Below, piece by piece: positions 18,399 through 62,130 of a stretch of DNA of 64,000 nt; within the stretch, counting starts at the first letter, position 1; each line of letters opens with the position of its first letter. Source of the DNA: Cunninghamella blakesleeana (Eukaryota > Mucoromycota > Mucoromycetes > Mucorales > Cunninghamellaceae). The stretch spans positions 3,472,001 to 3,536,000 of the forward strand of contig JAFCIZ010000006.1 in the NCBI GenBank assembly GCA_017871115.1, written 5' to 3'. The notes under the pieces were generated by a model. The model saw only the letters and a list, made by a program, of their open reading frames with translations, made no database searches and had not been told where the DNA came from. The position numbers and the translations under genes are program-made.

Positions 18399-19902
18399 TT
18401 ACAAGACAGTACAACCACCTTTGCTCTTCTTCTTTTTGTTAATCATCAAAGCGGCTCTGGTAGCATGTTCAAATACTTCACGTACACCTTCACCGGTTTT
18501 TGCGGAACATTCCTATAATTATGACATAATAGGGTAGTTAGTATTTTATTATTATTGCCAAGACCTTGCTTTAAATGTTTTTTAGCATCTCTTTTAAATA
18601 TTTAATTACCAAATACTTGTAAGCAGTAATACGTTGAGCTACAGCAGAACCCTATAAATATAGAATAGATAAAAAATTTAATATAGTTGTAGACAAATAA
18701 ATCATACGAATATAAAATTTATAGATTTTACTTCTTCAAAAGATACAGGTCGTTGAGAATTTCGTCGAAGTTCTTCAATAGTGGCAGGATCATTTCTTAA
18801 ATCTTTTTTGCATCCAACAAGAACAATGGGTAAACCTTGACAGAAGTGAAGGACTTCAGAGATCCACTATAAAATAAAAATAGATAATTTTTTAATTAAA
18901 ATATAATTGAGTCATACCTCATATATATCATGTATTTTTCTTCAAATTTACTTTTTCTTGAACATTTTCCAAAGAATCGGGGGAATCCACTGCGAAGCAA
19001 ATTAAAATGACATGGGAATCAGGATAAGATAATGGTCTAAGACGATCATAATCTTCTTGGCCTATAATTGCAGCGATAGATCAAATAAAGAAAAAAGAAA
19101 AAAAAAAAAGAAAAAAAGGAAATGTTAAAAATATAAAAATAAAGTTTATAATAAAAAAAAAGTTTTATCAGCCTCTTACCTGCAGTATCCCATAATGCCA
19201 ATTCAACGTGTTTACCATCTACTTCAACATCAGCTACATAGTTTTCAAAAACAGTAGGAACATAGAACTATCCAAATAATTATAAAAAGAATAATAAAAA
19301 TTATTAGATATAAGTTGTATATATATATAGGTATAGATATAAAGTAAACAAGAAAAAAAAGGGATGGGGAAGGGAACACAAGAAAAAAAAAGATAAAAAA
19401 AACTCCACTTTGCAACTAAAAAAGGAGGACTAACATATGGTATTTTAAATATAAACTTACTTCGGGGAAAGTACCCTTAGAGAATACAATCAGTAAACAA
19501 GTCTATATAATAGATAAAAAAATGAAATAAATAGAGTTAATAAATAAACACATTGCAATTAGCTGAATATTTTATTATTATTATTATTAATATATATATA
19601 TATATATATATATTTACCCTTTTCAGTATTAATAAATGATGAAAATTAAAAAATGATGAAAAAAAAAAAAAACAAAGGTTAGATGATAAATGATACTCCT
19701 ATTTTCTTTAAATAAAGCTTACTCTATTATAAAAATAAAAAAAAGACAAAAAAAAAGCAATTAGTATACTGGTATATTTAAAAAACTTTCTAATTTGTAA
19801 TGTGAATATCAATACTTACTTCCACCTATATAATAACAATAATAATAATTAAAAATGAAAATAAATAAAATAAGTATCATCTTTACTTCTTAGTATATAT
19901 AC

Positions 19903-19934
<32 letters not shown>

Positions 19935-20034
19935 TTGTATGTATGTATATGTGTGTATGTATATGTATTTTTTTATTTAAAAACTTACAAGCACCATCTC
20001 CTACAATAACAAGTTTTCTTCTAATTTCAGCCAT
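18399..20034 (-). CDS. RHO1: Rho1-type small GTPase, 194 aa, ten exons including two of one nucleotide
   Basis: Exons: 20034-19989, 19825-19820 (6 nt), 19723 (1 nt, A), 19618 (1 nt, G), 19502-19461, 19267-19180, 19061-18952, 18866-18732, 18651-18610 and 18512-18399. The product has every G box: GDGACGKT (P-loop), the switch I threonine in [16 protein letters not shown] (switch II), the Rho-type G4 CKKD and ECSAK. A Rho insert helix, a polybasic KKKKSK and the CAAX box CTVL follow. The terminal Leu predicts geranylgeranylation and membrane anchoring. Rho1 controls cell-wall glucan synthase, actin and the PKC pathway. Codons Cys-Gly-Lys of the P-loop are split over five exons. Exon 2 supplies GTGGAA; two further nucleotides are needed before ACT. 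The 19723 and 19618 singletons supply exactly A and G. Confidence 0.93.
19618..19618 (-). other. Proposed single-nucleotide exon (G) of the Rho gene
   Basis: Minus-strand context: CTAAC and T-rich tract, then ATACTGAAAAG | G | GTAAAT. The acceptor is weaker (GAAAAG) than that at 19723. The base completes AAG before the exon beginning ACT TGT. The alternative, a non-canonical acceptor one base upstream at 19503, would remove the need for this exon. Confidence 0.5.
19723..19723 (-). other. Proposed single-nucleotide exon (A) of the Rho gene
   Basis: On the minus strand the context is ...TACTAAT, a long T-rich tract, TTATAATAG | A | GTAAGC. A good branch point, pyrimidine tract and acceptor are followed one base later by a strong donor. 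The base is the second position of the P-loop Lys codon. Confidence 0.65.
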
Positions 20035-25216: not shown

Positions 25217-27260
25217 ATGAATGCTATAAGTATAAACTTTAGTGTGCATACATTATTTTTATTTGCTCTAATTTTGACAGTGATAAATAATGTAGAAGGT
25301 AAACTTCGTGTATACGAATTAAATGTAGCAAGAGGCAAAGTGAAAGATCCAAGCTGCCAAACAAATATTGAACATGATGTTTTATTGGTTAATGGGAAAT
25401 ACCCTGCTCCACCTATTAGAGCAACAGTAAATGACGATATACATATAATTGTGCGCAATTCTCTTGGTTCAAATGAAACAACTTCTATTCATTATCATGG
25501 TATTTTGCAAATTGGTTCTACTCAATACGATGGTGTACCTAATGTTAATCAAAAACCTATTTTACCAGGAGAAGAATTTCACCAGCGTTTTAAAATTATT
25601 GATCAAGTAGGAACCTTTTTTTACCATGGACACGTTGGATTACAAGAAGATACTATCCAAGGACCATTCATTGTCTATCCAGACGATGAATCATGGCCAA
25701 GTGATATGGAAGATGTTGATAGATATTTAGAATTACACAATAATGAAGATGATAATGAAATCAGTCATGCAGCTTTTGATAAGCATCATGCAAAAGAAGA
25801 CAATGAAAAGGATAATGATTACAAATTAACGGATGGACCTTATGAATATGATGATGAAAGAATTATCCAAATATCAGAATGGTGGAACCAATCAACTAAA
25901 GATAGATTGGGTTATTATTTAGGATCTAATTATACTGGCATGCAAGCTGCAGATTATTACCTTATTAATGGTCGTGGCAATATTAATAATATTACAGCTG
26001 TAAACAATTGCCCTGGTTATGCATCTATTGATGTACTTCCTAATAAGGTATATCGATTACGTCTCATTGGTGCTATTAGTTTTACCACTGTTAGTTTTTC
26101 AATTGCAAACCACAATCTAACAATCATTGAAGTAGATGGCAATCTTATTGAACCTTATGAAACATCTACTATAGAAATTGCATCTGGCCAGCGTTTTTCG
26201 GTTTTAGTCAATACAAACCAACTACCTGGTACCTCATATAATATGGATGTCCATCGTCAATGGTCACCTTTAGACCCACATTTATTACCTTATGGCCGTG
26301 CTATATTTAATTATCTTGGAATAGAAAATAAAACCATATATAATGGTGATAATACTGAACCACTAGAAAAGAAAATAGTATCAACTACTTCAAAAACAAA
26401 TCTTTGTAAAGGAGCACCAAAAGAATTTTCAAGAACGACTTTACAACCAGCTACCTTTGTATCTGATTTTAATATACCAAAGCCTGTAAGTCAGTGGATA
26501 TTTCCCCAATTGAAAACTCTTGATAAAACTCCTAGTACACCTACAGTTGCGACTACCAGAGATTTTACATCACCACCTGATCGTACTATTGTTATCATGC
26601 CAGAAGAAGTAATTACAAAGGATCATAAAACGAGATGGAAAATTAATGGAAGGTATTTAGCTCAATGGAAGACTCCAGTACTTGAGCAATTAGTTAACTC
26701 CAATAATTTACAAACAAGATTATTAACAAATGAAACTAATCAACAACTTATTAAACAAGATTATAGCAGTGGCTTTGATGATACTTTAAATACATATCCA
26801 ATGTTCTATAATGAAGTAATCGATGTCGTTATCCATACAACCACTCTATTGGATGGTGGTGTATGCGCAAGTAAGTAATTATATATATATATGGTTATTA
26901 ATTTATTAATTTGTTTATATTATTTGTTATTTTATACATATTTATACATATTTATAAATAGATCATCCATGGCACACGCATGGATTCCAGCATTATCCTA
27001 TCGCTCATGGACCAGGAGAGTATAACCACGAACAAGATGAACAAATAAGAACTTATGAAGCACCTATACCCAGAGATGTAAGCCAAGTTTATGGTGTACC
27101 TATTAATACTACAGAAGCTGGCGTCCCTTGTGGATGGTCAAAAATACGAGTTTTTGCAAATAATCCTGGTATGTGGGCTTTTCACTGCCATATTACTTCT
27201 CACATGATTCAAGGAATGATGCTTGTTGTAGAAATGGCTCCCGATCTTATTAGTATCTAG
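25217..27260 (+). CDS. Secreted multicopper oxidase (laccase/ascorbate-oxidase/Fet3-like), 650 aa
   Basis: Exons 25217-26870 and 26962-27260 (GCAA|gtaagt ... aaatag|ATC). A signal peptide spans residues 1-28. All ten copper ligands are present: IHYHG (H92, H94), FYHGHVG (H137, H139), HPWHTHG (H553, H556, H558) and HCHITSH (H626, C627, H628, H632) with M637 as probable axial ligand of the type 1 site. The enzyme couples oxidation of a substrate to four-electron reduction of O2. There are many N-x-S/T sites. An acidic, His-containing insert (about 160-205) lies between cupredoxin domains 1 and 2. No C-terminal transmembrane helix is found, so unlike Fet3 it appears to be soluble and secreted. 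Whether it is a laccase, ferroxidase or ascorbate oxidase cannot be decided. Confidence 0.93.
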
Positions 27261-53429: not shown

Positions 53430-55751
53430 ATGTTACCATCTATTCCAGTATCGCCTTTAATACAACAATCCTTAAATTGTGCTTCACAATTAGCAGAATT
53501 TACTAAAAAAATAGCTGATCAGCAAAAAGATGATATTGACTACTATGAACAACAATCTATAGCACAAAGAATAAAGTTAGATCTAATAACAAAACAAATG
53601 CATTCGGTACGTGATTTGTTATATCATCATTGGCAACCTGAAGCTTTAGCGAAGCAAATAGTTATTATTAATGTTGATTTATTTCTTCATCATCAAGTAA
53701 AACAATTAAATGACTTTCATACCTATTTATTACACAGTCTTGCTCACCAAATTATTATCAGTAATAGTCATTCTTATGCAACAGCTTTTGATTTCGCCAT
53801 TCGATTAGCTCGCTGCCTTCATCAATACAGAGACTGGAACGGATGTATGGCTGTACTTCGCTGTTTATCTTTACCACCTTTAAAAAGACTTTATTATACT
53901 ACTACTACTACTACCTCACACCCTCTTATTCATGATTTTCCTTGGATGCAGCAAGATATTGATTCTTCTTATTTACAAGCTTTTCAACAGAGTTTATTGC
54001 CTCTAAGACCTTATTCTTTGGAAGCGCAGGAACATAAACGGACTCGTTCCCTTTCAACCTCATCATTTCATTCGAAAAAGAAAAAGAAAGCAACATATGT
54101 CATTGCTATACCTTGGTTCCCTCCTATTTTGGATCTGGTATCAGAGCAGGATAGAGAGATACTTATGGATATATGTCGTTATAATCATTGGCCAAAGCAG
54201 CCATCTATAACAAGAGCTCTCTTTAATTTATCTGATAATGATAATAACAATATGAATACATCATCATTAAAAAATATACCACCTATGTTGCCTTCTTCTA
54301 GTATTTTTGATTTAGCTACATCCCTTGGCCAAGGTGATCTTTTAATCTGTCATTGGCTTTTATCCCGTGCTTTTTTAACTTTGGATCAGTTGGATTCTGA
54401 AAGTGAAATAATAAAACCTATTAGTAATAATGAAGTACAACACCAACAACATCAACGGCAACTATCTGATAATAGTATTATTATGGATAGTGTAGATAAC
54501 GAAGAAGTAGAAGTGGAGGAAGATGAAATAGAAATAGTAGAGGAAATAGAACAACTACATGTTGATAATCCTATAGAAATTATGGAATTAGAGGAGGATA
54601 GAGAAGTAAACGTGAATGTTGCACTGTTATCTAGTAAATCTTCGTTGGAGTCAAATTACAATAATAATGATGAAAATAATATCATACAACAAGATGATAA
54701 TGATGATAAAAATGAAATTAAATCAGAAAATATAGCCAATACAACGAATATACCTTCAACCTCACATTCACCTTCTACTTCTATCCATTCAGTTGATTTT
54801 ACCAATTTAAGAACCATTCAACAAGGTAGCATAGTATCTGATCCTACTCCCAAATTAGACACTATAAAAGATAACAATGATAATAGTATCAATGGTAATG
54901 GTTTACAGCTAGAAGAACAACAATACCATTTATTAAATAGTAATAATGACACTGATACCAGTAGTATTGGTAAAACCAGTGAACAAATTAATGGAAACAG
55001 TATGGATGAATCTAAAATTCAAACCGATAAACCAGTTGATATTTCACCATTTAAATCAGCAACTTTGTCGGAAACCATTGATAATAATATACCTATTTTT
55101 GATAACTCCAATCAGCCGTTGAAGGAAGATTCTCATAATGACGTCAAATCGATTCATACTGATGGTAGTATCGAAAATTCCGTAGATAAGATGGAAAATA
55201 ACAATAGTAATGGTAAAGTGGATGATATGATGGAAATTAAGTCTGAAAACAATCATAGTATAAAAGAAAGCAATGCTATAAATCAGAATGGAGTAATAGA
55301 AGTAGTAGAAGAAGAAGAAAAAAGAGACAAAAAGGAAAATGATAATGAAGATGATGATGCAAGTGAACAATGGACTGGCTACCCAATGCCAAAAGAAGAT
55401 ATGGAAAATAGCAACCAAGATTATGATATGGAAGAAGAAGATGAAGTATGGACCGGTTATCCTGAACCTAACCAACATGGTGAACACCAGTACCATCATC
55501 ATAATAAAACAATTTCATCTGATGAAGCTTCAGAAGAGGAATGGAAAGGATATCATGCAACTTCAGAAGAAGCTAAATGGCAAGAAGAAACTATATTAAA
55601 AGTACAACAGCAAGAATGGCAAGGATATGCTTTAGAAACATTAGATGAGGATGAATTGGATTCAAGTACTGTTATTACTAATAGATATGAAAAAACTTAT
55701 CAATCTGGAAATATCATATTAAATCATCCTATTCATTCTAGTTCTTCTTAA
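53430..55751 (+). CDS. RasGEF-domain-like protein with acidic tail and W-x-G-Y repeats, 773 aa
   Basis: Single exon. Residues 60-270 show the pattern of a CDC25/RasGEF domain: PEALAKQIVIINVDLFLHHQ (strand/helix at the start), an FHTYLLHSLAHQII helix, AFDFAIRLARCLHQYRDWNG, LRCLSLPPLKRL, and an IPWFPPILDLVSEQDRE segment that matches the P-x-x-P-x-L-x-D-L end of the fold. This would exchange GDP for GTP on a Ras-like GTPase. The similarity is weak, so activity is not certain. The remaining 450 residues are acidic, Asn/Ser-rich and disordered. Near the C-terminus four W-[TKQ]-G-Y copies occur (Trp at 648, 674, 705, 730). Upstream T-tracts precede the ATG. Confidence 0.7.
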   Translation: MLPSIPVSPLIQQSLNCASQLAEFTKKIADQQKDDIDYYEQQSIAQRIKLDLITKQMHSVRDLLYHHWQPEALAKQIVIINVDLFLHHQVKQLNDFHTYLLHSLAHQIIISNSHSYATAFDFAIRLARCLHQYRDWNGCMAVLRCLSLPPLKRLYYTTTTTTSHPLIHDFPWMQQDIDSSYLQAFQQSLLPLRPYSLEAQEHKRTRSLSTSSFHSKKKKKATYVIAIPWFPPILDLVSEQDREILMDICRYNHWPKQPSITRALFNLSDNDNNNMNTSSLKNIPPMLPSSSIFDLATSLGQGDLLICHWLLSRAFLTLDQLDSESEIIKPISNNEVQHQQHQRQLSDNSIIMDSVDNEEVEVEEDEIEIVEEIEQLHVDNPIEIMELEEDREVNVNVALLSSKSSLESNYNNNDENNIIQQDDNDDKNEIKSENIANTTNIPSTSHSPSTSIHSVDFTNLRTIQQGSIVSDPTPKLDTIKDNNDNSINGNGLQLEEQQYHLLNSNNDTDTSSIGKTSEQINGNSMDESKIQTDKPVDISPFKSATLSETIDNNIPIFDNSNQPLKEDSHNDVKSIHTDGSIENSVDKMENNNSNGKVDDMMEIKSENNHSIKESNAINQNGVIEVVEEEEKRDKKENDNEDDDASEQWTGYPMPKEDMENSNQDYDMEEEDEVWTGYPEPNQHGEHQYHHHNKTISSDEASEEEWKGYHATSEEAKWQEETILKVQQQEWQGYALETLDEDELDSSTVITNRYEKTYQSGNIILNHPIHSSSS

Positions 55752-59870: not shown

Positions 59871-62130
59871 ATGAATCTAATATCAAAAACAGTAAAGTAT
59901 TTTAAATACCTTGGTAAATTTATCGGTCCAGGGTTTATGATAGCTGTGGGATAGTAAGTTTATTATCTTTAGTTCCTCTTTTGATAAATATAATAAATAA
60001 TTAATTTAAATGTGTTTTAGAACAATATACTTATATATATACATATATATACACTTTATTATATAAATTATGTGTAATTTGTAGTTTAGACCCCGGAAAT
60101 TGGGCTACAGATCTCGAGGGAGGAAGCAGTTTTGGATATAGATTATTATTTATTATCTTATTATCAAACTTTATTGCTATATTTTTACAAAATCTTACTA
60201 TTCGACTTGGTACTGGTATGTTATTTGATGCTAGTTTTTTTATTTTAAAATATCATGAGGTATAAATTATTATTACTTATCTTTCCCTGTTTATTTTTTT
60301 ATTTTTTTATTATTATTTATATTAATATTGATCTTTACAGTGTCAGGATTTGATTTAGCAGTGTGCTGTCGCAGATATTTACCAAAATACGTATCCTTGT
60401 TTTTATATGTACTTGCTGAATCCGCCATTATTGCAACCGATTTAGCTGAAGTCATTGGTAGCGCTATTGCTCTTAATCTTCTCTTTCCTTCTTTACCTTT
60501 ACCTGCTGGTGTAGCTATTACAGCTGTTGATGTATTCATTATATTATTATTTTATAAAGAACCTACTGACCTTTCTCATAGTTATGGCGGTGAAGATACA
60601 GTAGACAAGGAGCAGCAACAGCAGCAACAACGACATCAAAATGATGATACAACACAAATGGTACGCTATTTTGAAATTTTTGTCATGTTATTGGTCCTTG
60701 CTGTTGGTGTCTGTTTTATAATTGAATTAGCTTATTCAGAGATTAATACTACTGATTTATTGAAAGGCTACTTACCATCCAAGGAAATATTTACTGATAG
60801 AGAATCCTTATATGTTTCCATTGGTATTATCGGAGCCACTGTGATGCCTCACAATTTATTTTTACACTCTTATATCATTCAAGCCAGATGTTATACATGG
60901 CGTTATAATCGTCCACTACTTTTATCAAATGGTGACGAAACTAATAGTGAAAATCAAGGAAATAATATCATTAGTTTTTCCCCTTTATTACCATCTATTT
61001 TATCCCGATCTATAAAAAAGGAAAAAAATAACAGTAAAGAAAAAGAAAAAGTTGAAGATGAAATATCAGAACAATATCAACCTTCATGGAAGGATAACAA
61101 TGAAAAACAATTGTCCAATATCGCTACTGTATCTAATACAAATCATATTGGATCTATACCAAGTACATCTGAAATATACAGCAAGAATAACGATAAGAAT
61201 AACACAGCAATTGAAAAAAAATCAAGTATACATCAGCAACGTGGTGTTGATGTACAATTATTAAGACAGTACTTGAAAAAGAACTTACGAATTAATTTAC
61301 ATTATGGATTCATGGATTTAATTATAGCCTTATTATTTGCCTTTTTCGTTAATTCTTCTATTTTAATTGTAGCTTCAGCTAATTTTTATTATGGTCATGA
61401 GCATATTGTCTCTGACCTTTTCGATGCCCATGCTTTACTTGGGAAATACCTCGGTCCCCCTGCAGCTGTAGTTTTTGCATTAGCTTTATTATTCTCAGGT
61501 CAATCGAGTACTTTAACTGCCACGCTCGCTGGTCAAGTTGTTATGAGTGGTTTTTTAGGTATGACGAGTAAACCTTGGGTAAGACGAATCGTGACAAGAT
61601 CTATTGCTATTTTACCTGCTATGATAGCTGCTTGTATTGCTGGTCGATCTGGATTAAGTCAGATGCTTATTGCTAGTCAAGTGGTTCTTTCTATACAGTT
61701 ACCTTTTGCTGTTGTTCCTTTGGTTTATTTTACTTCTTTACATAAAGTCATGAGCCTTGATTTAATCGTAAATCACGATAAATTTAAACTTCCTTCTCTA
61801 CCTCTTTGGCTATATAAAATCAGTAGTATAATGGATCGTGCCATTGATCGATGGACACTTTTCATAAAAAGAAAATGGACAATTGCTCATGATGCACTAA
61901 ATTCTTGGAGAAATCATCATCATCATCAACAACAACGACAGGGTCGTTCATCTTCAGTATCGACTAGTATCGATATGGAACTCAAAAAGGATACTGATAT
62001 CATTTCTATTTTACCTGAACCTATTTATTATGTTAATGGTAAATGTGTGATCATTATTGCTATTTTAATTTCCACATTATTGATTGGTTTAAATGGCTAT
62101 TTAGTAGTCCAAAGTATACTTGGTGATTAG
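59871..62130 (+). CDS. Nramp (Smf-type) divalent metal transporter, 667 aa
   Basis: Exons 59871-59953, 60085-60215 and 60341-62130. The start is unusually short before helix 1 ([15 protein letters not shown]). The metal-binding D-P-G-N at residues 30-33 and M-P-H-N at 240-243 (helix 6) are both intact, so H+-coupled import of Mn2+ or Fe2+ is predicted. The loop after helix 6 is expanded to about 110 Lys/Glu/Ser/Asn residues. Short poly-Gln (about 163-170) precedes a predicted helix. The protein has the eleven to twelve helices of the family. It could be plasma-membrane, endosomal or vacuolar (Smf1/2/3); sequence alone does not say. It is convergent with the lipase gene. Confidence 0.92.

Follow-up and report, generated by a model that had tools for sequence, protein, structure and literature searches.

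A Rho1 gene with a frame gap in its P-loop

The window (the whole 64,000-nucleotide stretch of Cunninghamella blakesleeana DNA that was analyzed) carries a Rho1/RhoA gene on its minus strand, at positions 20034 to 18402. In the model with two 1-nt exons the gene has ten exons, which are listed here together with the first four introns.

Exon 1, 19989..20034, minus strand: ATG to GDGA plus the first base of Cys16
Intron 1, 19826..19988, minus strand: 163 nt, GTAAGT...TATAG
Exon 2, 19820..19825, minus strand: 6 nt, GTGGAA, the remainder of Cys16, Gly17, and the first base of Lys18
Intron 2, 19724..19819, minus strand: 96 nt, GTAAGT...AATAG
Exon 3 (putative), 19723..19723, minus strand: single base A, second base of Lys18
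Intron 3 (putative), 19619..19722, minus strand: 104 nt, GTAAGC...GAAAAG, with a weak acceptor
Exon 4 (putative), 19618..19618, minus strand: single base G, third base of Lys18
Intron 4, 19503..19617, minus strand: 115 nt, GTAAAT...TATAG, phase 0 at Lys/Thr(Ser)
Exon 5, 19461..19502, minus strand: starts with Thr19 (ACTTGT)
Exon 6, 19180..19267, minus strand
Exon 7, 18952..19061, minus strand
Exon 8, 18732..18866, minus strand
Exon 9, 18610..18651, minus strand
Exon 10, 18402..18512, minus strand: up to the C-terminal CTVL, followed by the stop codon

When joined, the exons encode a stop-free RhoA of 194 amino acids, which is complete only with two bases added between GTGGAA and ACTTGT. The joined protein has the Ras-family domain (Pfam, E 6.6e-53), the GDGACGKT P-loop, and the C-terminal CAAX box by which we recognized a Rho1/RhoA protein, and its best PDB sequence match is 6jik, named Rho GTPase Rho1. 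It is 96% identical to RhoA of Halteromyces radiatus (Mucorales), the closest protein of similar length among the matches listed, and the segments GDGACGKTCLL and PEFYVPT are identical in the two. The locus is the sole close RhoA match found in the genome (31.9 Mb in 12 contigs), other loci reaching at most 75% identity per matched exon. An exact-pattern search of the genome recovered no intronless copy of the spliced P-loop, and scanning the window against Rfam with gathering thresholds gave zero matches. Intron 1 contains a TA-rich tandem repeat at window positions 19894-19968.

A single canonical filling of the gap retains the P-loop lysine

Between exon 2 (GTGGAA) and exon 5 (ACTTGT) of this otherwise complete RhoA, two bases of the Lys18 codon are absent. 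Lysine occupies this P-loop position in 120 of 120 homologs among the matches listed, and the reading frame of the conserved protein needs exactly the two missing bases. We enumerated the canonical chains that could bridge the 317-nt gap, with exons of up to 60 nt and introns of at least 45 nt, and obtained 107. Just one GT-AG way of supplying AAR (Lys) was found, namely A followed by G, each as an exon of its own. The sites are TTATAATAG/A/GTAAGC, with the A at 19723, and GAAAAG/G/GTAAAT, with the G at 19618. The pattern AG/R/GT occurs in the gap only as AG/A/GT at 19725 and AG/G/GT at 19620, in the correct order, and a single 2-nt exon of the form AG/AR/GT is absent from the 317 nt. Among the 107 chains, the sole other 2-nt in-frame solution is an exon GA, which would give Arg and is followed by a poor donor. 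Some chains of at least 11 nt are also open, and these would insert residues into the P-loop.

A spliced aligner that we wrote to allow exons of any length picked the model with two 1-nt exons when a relative's protein (P0028) served as the query. That model still outscored any frameshift when the aligner was allowed one at a cost of 20. The spliced junction that it predicts is ...GGTGCTTGTGGAAAGACTTGT... / ...TGTGGAAAGACTTGT.... The coordinates in the first-pass annotation were all right (GTGGAA at 19825-19820, A at 19723, G at 19618, ACTTGT from 19502, and introns of 96, 104, and 115 nt), and its proposal that AAG is put together from three exons is supported by the sequence, through the uniqueness of the canonical Lys filling and through the parallels in Cdc42 and Ras2 described below. 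From the genomic sequence, three exons very probably contribute to the Lys18 AAG of Rho1, namely a 6-nt exon through its last base, followed by a 1-nt A and a 1-nt G, with GT-AG introns of normal length between them. No other model built wholly from canonical sites was found to preserve the P-loop lysine.

Intron lengths, splice-site scores, and chance

Introns 2 to 4 of Rho1 (96, 104, and 115 nt) have genome-typical lengths, as had been noted earlier; the median of the modeled introns is 116 nt (n = 205) or 118 nt (n = 301). The training introns exclude the micro-introns under study, of which Rho1 and Cdc42 contribute three each and Ras2 two, as well as models scoring below 250. Canonical AG and GT flank each of the two single bases. 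The donor of intron 2 lies at the top of the real range when intronic bases are scored, and its acceptor is at the 86th percentile. On intronic bases, the donor of exon 3 (GTAAGC) ranks at the 68th-73rd percentile and that of exon 4 (GTAAAT) at the 60th-69th; with the three preceding bases included, these become the 22nd and the 65th, respectively. The acceptor of intron 3, GAAAAG, is the one exception among otherwise ordinary site scores; it is weak, at the 6.6-7.8th percentile, though still inside the range of real acceptors. It had been singled out as the weakest point of the model, and its rank in the 7th-8th percentile bears this out; it is not foreign to the genome, though, as 8 of the 301 other modeled introns end in AAAAG. 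Candidate branch motifs are CTAAT in introns 2 and 4 and TTAAT/CTAAC in intron 3. Because YTRAY is present in 67% of the 301 training introns, this check separates little.

How often would such a filling arise by chance? Among 4000 dinucleotide shuffles, 5.1% contained some canonical Lys filling, and among 6000 real flanking stretches 8.2% did; these values fell to 1.5% and 2.4%, respectively, with donors restricted to GTA[AT]. The tandem pair was the shortest filling in 12 of the 4000 shuffles and 25 of the 6000 real stretches (0.3-0.4%); with GTA[AT] donors, it was found in 0 of the 6000 real flanking stretches. None of the 4000 shuffles supplied the eight bases from exon 1 to ACT (GYGGNAAR). 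Some canonical filling by chance is possible, and the tandem arrangement of Rho1 has a chance of roughly half a percent, a figure that takes no account of intron lengths.

Predicted tiny exons in Cdc42, Ras2, and other genes

We ran the aligner on 41 Ras-family genes and on 30 Arf, G-alpha, phosphatase, and ubiquitin-conjugating genes, 71 in total. Apart from that for Rho1, the queries were mostly human proteins, and errors in them would lower the scores. The exon-size count is confined to internal exons; terminal pieces, such as one of 2 nt (TG) in L102, do not enter it. Internal exons shorter than 6 nt were needed in three of the 71 genes, Rho1 (A, G), Cdc42 (GA, AA), and Ras2 (AG), and in none of the other 68 modeled genes. 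A canonical filling exists in all three genes in which the frame calls for one.

The Cdc42 gene (L044, G000:C5:4689500-4692500, locus positions 711-2181) needs four bases at the same spot in the P-loop. Their unique canonical supply is a tandem pair of 2-nt exons, GA (locus 915-916) and AA (locus 1081-1082), so that GTT GG/GA/AA/ACT reads VGKT, and the alignment then runs without a gap across 191 amino acids. By chance, 3000 shuffles yielded a filling of any kind in 4.6% of cases, and 6000 real flanks in 15.4%. When exon bases are included in the score, the GTATGT donors of the Cdc42 micro-exons are rather weak, in the 7th-12th percentile. The YTRAY branch motif was not found in the first two introns of this gene. 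In Ras2 (L051, G000:C1:4663000-4665500, minus strand), a 2-nt exon, AG, would complete the switch-I Glu of HFVETYDPT; the chance of a filling was 2.0% in shuffles and 5.7% in real flanks. As modeled from sequence, the Cdc42 and Ras2 exons would be comparable cases that support the proposed reading of Rho1.

Somewhat longer small exons recur among paralogs. The Rab6 paralogs L065, L069, L070, and L072 have a common 8-nt exon, CTGGTCAA/G, in the DTAGQ motif, and the Rab2-like paralogs L076 and L077 have a common 11-nt exon in the P-loop. A Rho1 paralog (L038, G000:C6:217900-220300, minus strand), with the P-loop GDGAIGKT, has a 6-nt exon, GGAAAA, at the same place as exon 2 of Rho1.

The P-loop is a hot spot for introns in this genome. 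An intron lies inside it in 31 of the 39 Ras-family genes with a modeled P-loop, and its eight codons hold 39 of the 200 introns in these genes, compared with 8.5 expected. (L070 and L072 were left out of this count, their first exon lying outside the fetched stretch.) Phase-1 introns interrupt the Lys codon in Cdc42 and Rho1, phase-2 introns do so in L064 and Rho1, and an intron follows the third Lys base in seven genes (Rho1, L038, L044, L051, L062, L076, and L077). Rho1, as modeled, combines all three Lys-codon intron positions, each of which is used elsewhere in the genome.

An annotation signature in Ras2 homologs

If gene finders tend to miss a 2-nt exon, annotated homologs might carry a scar at its position. 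We retrieved 1468 relatives of Ras2 at E <= 1e-60 and compared the best 120 of these 1468, nearly all of which are fungal where named. An alignment gap at Ras2 residues 29-31 was present in 35 of the best 120 of 1468, making this the busiest gap window within residues 5-165 (the median window has 0). The indel forms vary, with NHF+TYDPT in 11, TIQ+TYDPT in 7, and extra residues before TYDPT in others; differing forms are expected because gene finders would improvise at a 2-nt exon. Glu was at the expected place in 72 of the 120 best homologs, with zero overlap with the 35, and 13 homologs belong to neither group. Genuine sequence variation may underlie at least one of the 35, P0254 (FPEAYDPT). 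This comparison of proteins suggests that fungal Ras2 has a conserved 2-nt exon, often missed by gene finders, in independently assembled genomes. By extension, it suggests that such fungi handle 2-nt exons, a point about Ras2 that does not in itself establish the 1-nt pair of Rho1. Among the Rho matches listed, 1 of 93 homologs (P0028-P0120) has a gap at residues 17-19, but that list is uninformative about an annotation signature because it includes only high scorers and would hide one.

Alternative explanations for the missing bases

The gap in the Lys18 codon could instead reflect a fault in the assembly. The best rival to the three-exon model is that the assembly lacks one base beside exon A, or that the strain has a real 1-base deletion there. 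Exon A would then belong to a true single 2-nt exon homologous to the Cdc42 AA exon, the G at 19618 would be coincidental, and the mRNA would be the same as that of the three-exon model. The presence in Cdc42 of a 2-nt exon at the same codon position fits this explanation, as does the weakness of the downstream acceptor GAAAAG, and of 6000 real flanks, 10.9% had a chance AG/R/GT in a 221-nt stretch and 2.7% had one with a good donor. Against it, allowing a frameshift at a cost of 20 improved none of the models in the Ras-family set, to which this check was confined (41 models, seven of them partial, with 23,154 coding nt in all). An error at one given base is therefore unlikely. In the alignments of both gene sets, four gaps lie within 6 nt of a junction, and these are whole residues by construction of the aligner. 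The missing base would also entail an intron of about 222 nt, and 7.6% of the 301 introns are that long or longer. On balance we regard a missing base beside exon A as improbable, though it is a more serious rival than the non-canonical acceptor that the first-pass annotation had offered as an alternative. Loss of two bases at the end of exon 2 is less probable still, and we rank it at the bottom. Exon 2 would then be 8 nt long and would be followed by one 317-nt intron, with the junction TGTGGAAAAACTTGT. The Rho paralog L038 does have an A-rich exon, GGAAAA, before its intron, but only 3 of 205 or 8 of 301 modeled introns reach 317 nt, the tandem pair would have to be the shortest solution by a chance of 0.3-0.4%, and a further, independent fault would have to have struck the same codon of Cdc42.

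The remaining explanations accept the assembled sequence and change how it is used. The canonical 2-nt exon GA (19698-19697), the only other 2-nt in-frame choice, has an acceptor at the 25th percentile and would give the junction TGTGGAAGAACTTGT, with Arg in place of the P-loop Lys. Its donor, GTATCA, is at the 2.7th percentile, and the lysine is invariant in the 120 listed homologs; Arg for Lys in P-loop GTPases is expected to abolish nucleotide binding. We consider use of this exon in place of the A and G very unlikely, but it could arise as a minor unproductive product. Non-canonical splicing appears equally unlikely. An intron that ended before its final AG would retain AG from TATAT/AGACT and spell AAG ACT, and one 1-nt exon combined with an acceptor shifted by one base would also restore the codon. 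All 205 training introns are GT...AG, a figure that is not a free test since the aligner was limited to GT/GC donors and AG acceptors. The same device in Cdc42 would lead to a frameshift or a stop, and in Rho1 it would turn two canonical micro-sites into a coincidence. Finally, the frame breaks unless the 1-nt exons are used, as it might in a pseudogene or a dead allele. The 194-amino-acid frame is otherwise intact and 96% identical to a protein from another genus, the locus is the only close RhoA match found, and RHO1 is essential in well-studied fungi; a dead locus ranks with the loss of two bases as the least credible of these explanations.

A possible splicing route and origin

If the three-exon model is correct, the order of intron removal would be constrained. 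The parts of the spliceosome cannot occupy both sides of one base at once. Because a 1-nt exon would not be definable from both sides at the same time, we infer that the Rho1 introns must leave in turn. With 5'-to-3' removal, each step would add one base and rebuild a donor, AAA/GTAAGC and then AAG/GTAAAT. These rebuilt donors score 7.64 and 10.14 bits, compared with 6.98 and 9.48 bits in the unspliced context; by sequence score, a donor is thus rebuilt after removal of each upstream intron, one of the features by which a recursive site is recognized. In Rho1, each AG/N/GT may act as a recursive-splicing site at which a single base is retained. The ratchet points of recursive splicing are zero-base exons (AG/GT) through which one long stretch is removed stepwise. 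The proposed Rho1 sites resemble them in the juxtaposition of acceptor and donor and in stepwise removal, and differ in that each step would leave one coding base required by the protein and in that the introns are short.

The simplest origin would be an ancestral 2-nt exon, AR, which Cdc42 retains; in Rho1 one of its bases would have been lost, and a cryptic AG/G/GT would have rescued the loss. All of the skipping forms that we computed (seven for Rho1, three for Cdc42, and one for Ras2) hit a stop after 15 to 31 codons, so splicing faults would be unproductive. A broader scenario, which we judge to have about an even chance of being right, is that the P-loop intron hot spot cuts codons down to 1- and 2-base exons, that the 2-nt exon of Rho1 decayed into two recursively spliced 1-nt exons, and that the cluster might help to control the levels of Rho1 and Cdc42. 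If the Rho1 pair were confirmed, it would show a spliceosome able to advance one base at a time across an essential coding motif, and the cluster would offer a natural substrate for testing the splicing of exons shorter than 3 nt. Taken with the paired 2-nt exons of Cdc42 and the apparently misannotated Ras2 exon of fungi, a confirmed Rho1 pair would suggest that standard gene finders fail on core signaling genes in early fungi.

Comparison with known single-nucleotide exons

The earlier remark that one 1-nt exon is known from plants was right about plants but understates the number, there being two such plant genes and a fungal P450 gene. Arabidopsis APC11 has a 1-nt exon whose flanking introns are argued to be removed in turn (PMC4674806), and plant APC11 and VPS55 each have a single-nucleotide exon (PMC8831610). 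As proposed for Rho1, these are one-base exons between introns that were missed in annotation; unlike the Rho1 pair, which would place two in one codon and is proposed from genomic sequence, they are described there as one per gene and RNA confirmed (PMC4674806, PMC8831610). The Fusarium CYP621A gene has a 1-nt G exon (AGGGT), for which its authors propose a base loss rescued by a cryptic AGGGT (PMC12940212). It shares with Rho1 a fungal host, a position inside a conserved motif, and a first inference from the reading frame, but there the exon is single and is accompanied by RNA reads and orthologs, whereas the putative Rho1 exons are a tandem pair with support from within one genome (PMC12940212). 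A plant peptidase gene is described with adjacent microexons of 5 and 12 nt, which are likewise neighboring and missed in annotation but far longer (PMC8831610, PMC11096116), and a one-base exon is reported in placozoan mitochondrial cox1 (PMC5436844). Among the matches listed in a literature search of openly licensed papers, we found neither tandem 1-nt exons nor a codon derived from three exons. If confirmed, Rho1 would be the first case known to us of two consecutive one-base exons and of a codon drawn from three exons.

Other reading frames in the window

Three further reading frames were noted in the window, all on the plus strand. A 773-amino-acid frame at 53430-55751, in the same window as Rho1, has a weak RasGEF domain match. 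A multicopper oxidase reading frame lies at 25217-26878. An Nramp-type metal transporter is encoded at 60328-62130. Its similarity to Cunninghamella echinulata proteins places the genome in or near that species: one of them is 97% identical, and a second is 93% identical over 82% of its length.
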